From contig JAQBOZ010000007.1 in NCBI GenBank assembly GCA_028287785.1, positions 124,001-188,000 on the forward strand: a stretch of DNA of 64,000 nucleotides. Direction: 5' to 3'. Source of the stretch: Chlorobiota bacterium. Its GTDB lineage: Bacteria; Bacteroidota; Ignavibacteria; OLB7. Below, piece after piece: positions 10,313 through 56,615 of this stretch. Position numbers and translations under genes: made by a program. The notes beneath the pieces were generated by a model, which saw only the letters and a program-made list of their open reading frames with translations, did no database searches and was not told the origin of the DNA. Within the stretch, counting starts at the first letter, position 1. Every line of letters starts with the position of its first letter.

Positions 10313-10488
10313 AATATCACTCCGCTCCAATGGCGATTTCGCGCCTGTAGATATCGGAAACAGACTGGGATGCGGATACCTGGAGCGCCGCAACCAGTGT
10401 GGACCAGCATTATGGCCCCGCCGTGTTTCGACGGGAGTATTCCAGACAGGCAAGCTAGGCCGGAGAGATGAGATAAAGATGAGACGTG

Positions 10489-10797
10489 CATGGTGACTCG
10501 GTTCAAGTCCAGCATCCGGTTGACAGCGCTATGATCCATCGATGATCCTCTCCTCACTCTTCAAGCTCCGTCAGGAGCGTGCCGGTTGTAGCAACGATGC
10601 CTCCTCAAGCTCCAGAGGAGCGTACCATTCTGCCGGCCGGCGAGGATGGTACGCTCCTCTGGAGCTTGAAATCATGGGAGACGTGGTGATGCTACAACCG
10701 GTACGCCCCGATGGGGCTGGGAAGGATGGGGCTGGGAAGACGGATGCCGTATATGACCCCGGGCATCATCTACACCATCTCAACCTGAGTCACTACC
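10489..10797 (-). mobile_element. MITE-like element, copy 1 (309 bp)
   Basis: Matches the copy at 55415-55718 in reverse complement over its whole length, by eye at about 80-85%. The ends are inverted (CATGGTGACTC... and ...GAGTCACTACC), and it is flanked by 8-bp direct repeats GAGACGTG (10481-10488) and AAGACGTG (10798-10805). Inside are two nested hairpins: a 12-bp outer stem (10582-10593 with 10690-10701) and a 23-bp perfect inner stem (10606-10628 with 10646-10668). A 15-bp unit, GATGGGGCTGGGAAG, is tandemly doubled at 10710-10739. It encodes no transposase, so it would have to be moved in trans. It fills the gap between the two kinase genes. Confidence 0.85.
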
Positions 10798-10874
10798 AAG
10801 ACGTGATGTGGTCTGTGGGTGAAATCAATCATCGGCATCGATCGTGGCGGAGCTGGGTCTCCGACCAGGCCTGC

Positions 10875-55154: not shown

Positions 55155-55414
55155 AATCGAGGAGGGAATAGAATTGCCCGTCCGAGCGAGAAAACAGAGA
55201 TATCTGTTCCGTCGGAAATGACAGCCGGAATGGAAGAGGGATGGAGTGAAAAGCTGAATGGGTTCGGATATCCGGGACATGGCTGGACGCCATGAACAAT
55301 CCTCAATCCCGCAGGCCTGGTCCTCTGTACGATACTTTCAGCGTCTGGAGACGAACTTTCAGGCGCTGTCTTGCAGGGAAAGTGTACAAAATCAGTGCCG
55401 GGTACAAGATTTTT

Positions 55415-55718
55415 GGTAGCGGCTCAGGTTGAGATACTGTAGATGATGCCCGGAGTCATCTACGGCATCCGCCTTCCCAGCCCCACCGGGGCGTGCCGGT
55501 TGCAGCATCGCCACGCCTCCCATGATTCCAGGCTCCATCGGAGCGTGCCATTCTGCCGGCATGCGAGGATGGTACGCTCCGATGGAGCTTGAGCGGGGAA
55601 CGGGGGCATCGTTGCTGCAACCGGCGCGCTCCTGACGGAGCTTGAAGAGTGATCAGAGGATCGTCGATGGATCATTGCGTTGTCAACCGGAGGGCTGGAT
55701 TCAAATTGAGCCACTACC
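55415..55718 (+). mobile_element. MITE-like element, copy 2 (304 bp)
   Basis: The ends are GGTAGCGGCTCAGGTTGAG and TTGAGCCACTACC, inverted repeats of each other at about 80%. Exact 8-bp direct repeats, AGATTTTT, flank it (55407-55414 and 55719-55726), the mark of transposition. It contains a 12-bp outer stem (55496-55507 with 55613-55624) and a 20-bp inner stem with one G-T pair (55532-55551 with 55569-55588). It has no transposase gene. The rest of the 55155-55835 gap shows no other gene. Confidence 0.88.
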
Positions 55719-55835
55719 AGATTTTTACGAGAAGCCACGTTCGTTCTCCTGTAACATCGCGGGCTGGCACGCAATTCGTCTTTATGGAGTGTGTGATACC
55801 AATGATTAACGATGCGATGATGAGGAGAAACGGCG

Positions 55836-56615
55836 ATGAATACTCACTGGAAATTCCCGGGGATACGATGGATTGGATATAGCCTGATTGCAATCGGCCT
55901 GAGCGCCCCGCAGGCAGGCATCGGACAACTCCGCAACACCTCCCGCAAGGTGGCCCCTCCGGCGGAGAGCCGCGTTGCGGTCGGCCGGGTGATGAGCGGG
56001 CGCCTGCAACTGGCGATGATGAACACCAAACGGCATCTTGCGCGCGCCAAGCAGTTGACGCTTGCAGCGATTCATGAGAACGCGATCCGTTTCGGATTGA
56101 CGGATATCGATCTCAGCAGGGCAACCGCGTATATCGATGCCGTGGATACTCTTATTCTTGACCCGGCGCTGGGCGGCCTTGCCGAAGTGGATGTGGAATA
56201 TCCCGGGCAGATCCGCATCGGCCCCGAGTACGCGGTCGATCTCGATATCGATGATGAAGTGATTCTGCTCCTAGCGCATGAGCTGACTCATGTGGCCGCG
56301 CGGGACGAGAATTTCATCTCTATTATCGATAGCGTGGCGGAAGTCGTGCGGCGCACGGCGGGGGTGCATCCCACGCGGGATCAGGTGGAGGATCTGACAT
56401 GCGATTATATCGGCGAGCAGGCGCTGAAACAGTTCGTCCGGGAAAGCCCCGGCAGTGAGTCCATCGGGAATCGGTTGAGCGAAACGCTCGGTTATGAGGA
56501 TGAGATGGATGAGGGGGACGAAGAGCATCTGAACCATGAGGCGATGTTGAAATCATGGCTGGCGCTCGACCCGGAACTGGAATCGCTTCTTCCGCACCTC
56601 AGCGCTTCCCGATAG
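55836..56615 (+). CDS. Exported HExxH-motif protein, 259 aa
   Basis: A leader (RWIGYSLIAIGLSAPQAGIG) is followed by a single domain with the zinc-metallopeptidase motif HELTH in LLLAHELTHVAARD; a downstream acidic region (QVEDLTCDYIGEQAL) could supply the third ligand, as in gluzincin-type enzymes. It has the size of small 'M78/M48-like' or putative peptidase proteins, but no family is certain and the activity is inferred from the motif alone. The C-terminus is acidic. AGGAG eight bases upstream fixes the ATG. It lies 117 bp after the MITE. Confidence 0.78.
   Translation: MNTHWKFPGIRWIGYSLIAIGLSAPQAGIGQLRNTSRKVAPPAESRVAVGRVMSGRLQLAMMNTKRHLARAKQLTLAAIHENAIRFGLTDIDLSRATAYIDAVDTLILDPALGGLAEVDVEYPGQIRIGPEYAVDLDIDDEVILLLAHELTHVAARDENFISIIDSVAEVVRRTAGVHPTRDQVEDLTCDYIGEQALKQFVRESPGSESIGNRLSETLGYEDEMDEGDEEHLNHEAMLKSWLALDPELESLLPHLSASR

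Follow-up and report, generated by a model that had tools for sequence, protein, structure and literature searches.

A high-copy Chlorobiota MITE, probably mobilised in trans by an IS1-like transposase, carries an end found in several phyla

The window analysed here – a 64,000-nucleotide stretch of contig C36 from a Chlorobiota bacterium (assembly GCA_028287785.1; 4.75 Mb, 37 contigs, 95% complete) – contains two copies of one short element. Sequence comparisons lead us to regard these copies as, very likely, members of a high-copy MITE moved in trans by an IS1-like DDE transposase. Mobilisation in trans is suggested by the ends and target duplications that the MITE shares with complete IS1-like transposons.

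Two MITE copies in the window

Copy 1 is a 309-bp element on the plus strand (10489..10797) and copy 2 a 304-bp element on the minus strand (55415..55718). The sequence-only reading had placed the two copies here in opposite orientation, and inverted arms of 131, 90 and 73 nt with 80–91% complementarity bear this out. The flanking 8-bp direct repeats that it described are likewise present. Copy 2 lies between exact duplications (55407..55414 and 55719..55726) that read AGATTTTT on the plus strand and AAAAATCT in the sense of the element, and copy 1 lies between GAGACGTG (10481..10488) and AAGACGTG (10798..10805), which are identical at 7/8 positions. The proposal that both copies have GGTAG...CTACC ends held for copy 2 (inward-reading ends GGTAGTGGCTCAATTTGA and GGTAGCGGCTCAGGTTGA) and for the intact right end of copy 1 (TGAGTCACTACC), but the left end of copy 1 is decayed, reading CATGGTGACTCGG (a decayed GGTAGTGACTCAG). 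The description of a transposed MITE that has no transposase, and no partner in the window, was correct.

Copy 1 belongs to a 304-bp subfamily and contains a 15-bp internal tandem duplication, GATGGGGCTGGGAAG (in the 10715–10745 region), that the other aligned copies lack. Its neighbours are two minus-strand sensor-kinase ORFs, and it lies 77 bases beyond the stop of one of them. Copy 2 is flanked by divergent ORFs – a sensor-kinase ORF on the minus strand starting at 55280 and a plus-strand ORF starting at 55836. Rfam and tRNA scans of the window gave no matches.

Copy number and distribution in the genome

The MITE is abundant in its own genome. BLAST returned 88 matches, a figure that includes overlapping, partial and palindromic ones, and an end-pattern search recovered 84 left-type and 88 right-type sites with 0 control hits. 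The loosest end pattern gave 228 sites compared with 18 in the control, and we therefore estimate ~105 copies ((228-18)/2). Searching the fetched stretches with a profile identified 135 fragments and 65 full-length copies; the MITE is 304–309 bp long, and the full-length copies span 267–331 bp. Two subfamilies were evident: one of ~304 bp (28 copies, mean divergence 16%), which includes both window copies, and one of ~309 bp (20 copies, mean divergence 11%).

At least 24 of the assembly's 74 contig ends break within the MITE (e.g., C2:1-153 and C36:492836-492993), and the assembled copies are thus an undercount. The MITE accounts for about one-third of the contig breaks and is a main cause of fragmentation. 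We considered whether contig ends conceal full-length elements, and rejected this because all 15 of the 15 that were read out consisted of MITE sequence only.

When we looked for the MITE in 40 relatives, it was absent except for a 29-bp stretch in a genome of the same genus (G001). The expansion therefore looks recent and, on these comparisons, confined to the species or to close strains. The MITE's own genome also carries a second, smaller MITE family, represented by elements of 178 bp (C16:174921-175098, L192) and 139 bp (C16:184104-184242, L193) with GGTAGTGTCTCAGTTTGA ends.

Target duplications and restored empty sites

Other genomic copies, which the sequence-only reading had named as the check on its proposal, do have consistent ends and 8-bp duplications. 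A duplication with at most one mismatch borders 36 of the 65 full-length copies (21 exact, 15 with one mismatch), while permuted flanks of the same 65 copies gave a mean of 0.7 and a maximum of 4. Mean flank identity in this set was 0.73 at 8 bp, as against 0.25–0.33 at 4–7 and 9–12 bp. The duplicated octamers showed no strong base preference.

We further identified three insertions of one MITE into another (C2:305781, C2:335993 and C36:222066). At C2:305781, deleting the insert along with one 8-bp copy leaves an ungapped match of 304 columns with the consensus across the junction, and in the other two cases the alignment is likewise unbroken through the junction. The sharp 8-bp duplications and the restored empty sites require transposition.

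These observations bear on whether the copies might instead be a structural repeat of the REP, BIME or ERIC kind, spread by recombination or kept for a role of its RNA or DNA. The whole MITE can be folded as a single long hairpin (DNA fold z = -7.3), the tip of which, by DNA fold and consensus fold, is a central palindrome, CAAGCTCCATCGGAGCGTACCAT...ATGGCACGCTCCGATGGAGCCTG (55528..55591). Consensus folding of 30 aligned copies revealed compensatory change in 7 of 60 pairs – mostly a two-base swap common to five copies, in which UC/GA in the central hairpin is exchanged for GA/UC. Strong folding and compensatory change are what such a repeat would offer, but sharp duplications, exact around some copies, and restored empty sites are at odds with it, and we consider this explanation extremely unlikely. 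Either conversion between the arms or selection for the palindrome could account for the compensatory pairs, and we claim no function for them. A co-opted role of some MITE copies is conceivable.

IS1-like transposons share the MITE ends

Starting from the MITE's 18-bp end, GGTAGTGACTCARKTTGA, we found a complete transposon in a Verrucomicrobia genome (L093) with perfect 18-bp ends, an exact CATTCCGC duplication, a length of 2,536 bp and a 274-aa transposase. The best NCBIfam match of this protein is IS1 (E 1e-15, under the equivalog cut-off), and it passes the Pfam IS1 cut-off. The same-genus genome G001 contains a 4,621-bp element with GGTACTGGGTCAATTTGA at both ends, an exact duplication (GACGGGGC/GACGGGGC) and a 291-aa transposase without stops; a few of the 18 positions differ between its ends and those of the MITE.

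As a second route we took the L093 protein as the starting point and fetched homologues from plasmids, viruses and relative genomes. Six elements found by their transposase (L169, L171, L172, L173, L174 and L177) combine ends of the GGTAGTG-NN-TCA-STTTGA type with exact 8-bp duplications. A seventh (L159) has an exact 8-bp duplication and diverged ends, and a genome of the same family (L161) has GGTAGTGTATCAGTTTGA at a distance of 50 bases from the transposase C-terminus. The ends thus lead to the protein and the protein to the ends, so the link holds in both directions. One 588-bp locus (L144) is an internally deleted derivative in which both ends and a remnant of the transposase persist; its 8-bp duplication has one mismatch.

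All 14 aligned transposases match IS1 models, which hit more members with better E-values than any other family, and D66, D138 and E204 are invariant among them. Two members were tabulated against NF033558 and scored 57–58 bits compared with a cut-off of 100; the PF03400 cut-off is passed by the L093 protein and not by that of G001. Annotated homologues carry the name IS1 family transposase. A PDB search with the transposase alignment gave no match.

Accessory genes recur within these elements. A homologous small ORF resembling histone H1 (~70–95 aa) lies inside the ends of 9 of the 12 IS1-like elements compared (L191:3798-4082 in G001, and also L093, L169-L173, L177 and L178). A cargo protein with Xre-HTH and M78 (ImmA/IrrE) domains is encoded at L191:1844-2992, L169:1773-2876 and L172:1762-2949.

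The sequence-only reading had suggested an ISL3, IS66 or IS256 transposase from the length of the duplication. These families are capable of 8-bp duplications, and a Microcystis MITE of 187 bp that is linked to ISL3 has them (PMC11448079). However, the published ISL3-type ends start GGCTCTTCG (PMC11448079), unlike the GGTAGTGACTCA of the MITE studied here, and none of the complete elements delimited with the MITE ends carries an ISL3, IS66 or IS256 transposase. Since complete elements that match the MITE in their ends and in duplication length encode an IS1-like transposase instead, mobilisation by any of the three suggested families is highly improbable.

Classification of the MITE and its partners

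In its sequence the element has the features of a MITE: it is short (below ~600 bp), multi-copy and devoid of a transposase gene. It has the same ends as an autonomous element, L093, and with small changes the same as G001 and the plasmid and viral elements, and its duplication has the length found in the complete elements (8 bp). The partner ends start GGT, with a duplication inside the 8–9 bp range of IS1.

Classical IS1 is compact (~0.8 kb) and has an insA/insB frameshift, a form that is not found in every IS1 subgroup. The complete partner elements do not take this form, being 1.9–4.6 kb long with one uninterrupted transposase ORF of ~270–295 aa. IS1-family insertion sequences such as IS1 and ISAba3, the latter with GGTGGTGTTTCA... 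ends and 8-bp duplications (PMC6382973), resemble the partners in having a DDE transposase (that of the partners being nearest to IS1 models), GGTRRTGNNTCA-type ends and an 8-bp duplication. The partners differ from them in length, in their single ORF, in their accessory genes and, where tabulated, in scoring under the NCBI IS1 equivalog cut-off; the window MITE differs from them in having no gene. Based on sequence, IS1-like suits the partner group better than classical IS1: end type, duplication and closest sequence recommend the name, yet the elements are long, single-ORF, cargo-bearing and below the equivalog cut-off.

Comparable MITEs have been described. MITEAba12, the partner of which is ISAba12, makes 9-bp duplications (PMC6382973). 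Like the window MITE, it and the Microcystis MITE are short, multi-copy and non-coding, have target duplications and can be tied to a partner by the ends they share with it, but both have other ends and other partner families.

Search for a partner in the MITE's own genome

We searched the 95% complete assembly with a profile of the 14 transposases and the sole match was at C35:28162-28347, a fragment of 62 residues with two stops; no intact IS1-like gene or autonomous partner was found in this assembly. Given that only this decayed fragment is present, the MITE looks currently orphaned in its own genome. Long pairs of MITE ends (2.5–3.8 kb) were considered as candidate autonomous elements and rejected: the 2.5-kb pair (L065) is made up of two MITEs, independent of each other, on either side of an unrelated FtsW/RodA-like gene, and the other long pairs likewise proved to be separate MITE copies. 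In its interior the MITE resembles none of the IS1-like transposons with which it was compared, and it is therefore no plain internal-deletion derivative of a known partner.

An IS1 relative that is present in the genome could in principle be responsible. The genome encodes three IS1595-family transposases that have no stops over the domain, and 8-bp duplications fit this family. However, matching inverted ends were found within 1.5 kb of none of the three genes, and the complete elements with MITE ends contain an IS1-like protein, with IS1595 in none of those found. We therefore judge mobilisation by an IS1595-family transposase to be very unlikely.

We propose that an IS1-like DDE transposase, supplied in trans, would recognise the ~18-bp ends (GGTAGTGACTCARTTTGA) and, by 8-bp staggered strand transfer, would put the MITE into new sites, leaving 8-bp duplications. 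The near-palindromic interior would be passenger DNA. The partner may have been lost, may lie in the ~5% that the assembly lacks, or may visit on plasmids or phages.

The same end in other phyla

We scanned 84,980 species genomes, one per species, for the exact 18-bp end and found at least 87 loci. Among the matches listed are loci from Acidobacteriota, FCPU426, Verrucomicrobiota, Bacteroidota (Chitinophaga), Gamma- and Alphaproteobacteria and others. Short elements bounded by both ends, whose 8-bp duplication has no more than one mismatch, make up 33 of the 87 listed loci (none when the flank was shifted), and six loci among the matches listed encode all or part of an IS1-like transposase. 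Outside the ends, the interiors of the 33 short elements fall into ~20 groups (among the matches listed) without detectable similarity. The MITEs with GGTAGTGACTCAGTTTGA ends in Acidobacteriota, FCPU426, Chitinophaga, Spartobacteria and Gamma- and Alphaproteobacteria have the same ends and 8-bp duplication as the window MITE, whereas their interiors are unrelated to it and mostly to one another. A text search of the literature for the end sequence found nothing relevant.

One such family, in Acidobacteria gp5 AA68 (L073, L085, L090, L100, L122 and L130), combines constant ends with lengths from ~130 to 490 bp, apparently through the insertion of other palindromic pieces in its interior. A 1,495-bp Dehalococcoidia locus (L114:1017-2511) has matching ends and a 7/8 duplication, and its readable part resembles a nucleotidyltransferase ORF. 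We rejected this locus as a partner element, as its interior is N-masked and mostly unreadable.

The MITE is otherwise of a known kind, and the unexpected part is the breadth with which one IS1-like end has been borrowed. We put forward, as a proposal about which we are evenly divided, that GGTAGTGACTCAGTTTGA with its 8-bp duplication may be the end module of a widespread IS1-like group that has a conserved small histone-like gene, and that, in several phyla, at least about 20 MITE families unrelated to one another may have adopted this module independently. In the genome studied here a MITE with this module would have reached ~105 copies despite the present absence of its partner, and visiting plasmid- or phage-borne transposons are suggested as the source of transposase.

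The ends and duplications point to the transposase group to look at, and one end sequence predicts MITE families across many poorly studied phyla. The combination of ~20 unrelated interiors (among the matches listed) with a single end further provides a substrate set for the recognition needs of IS1-like transposases.
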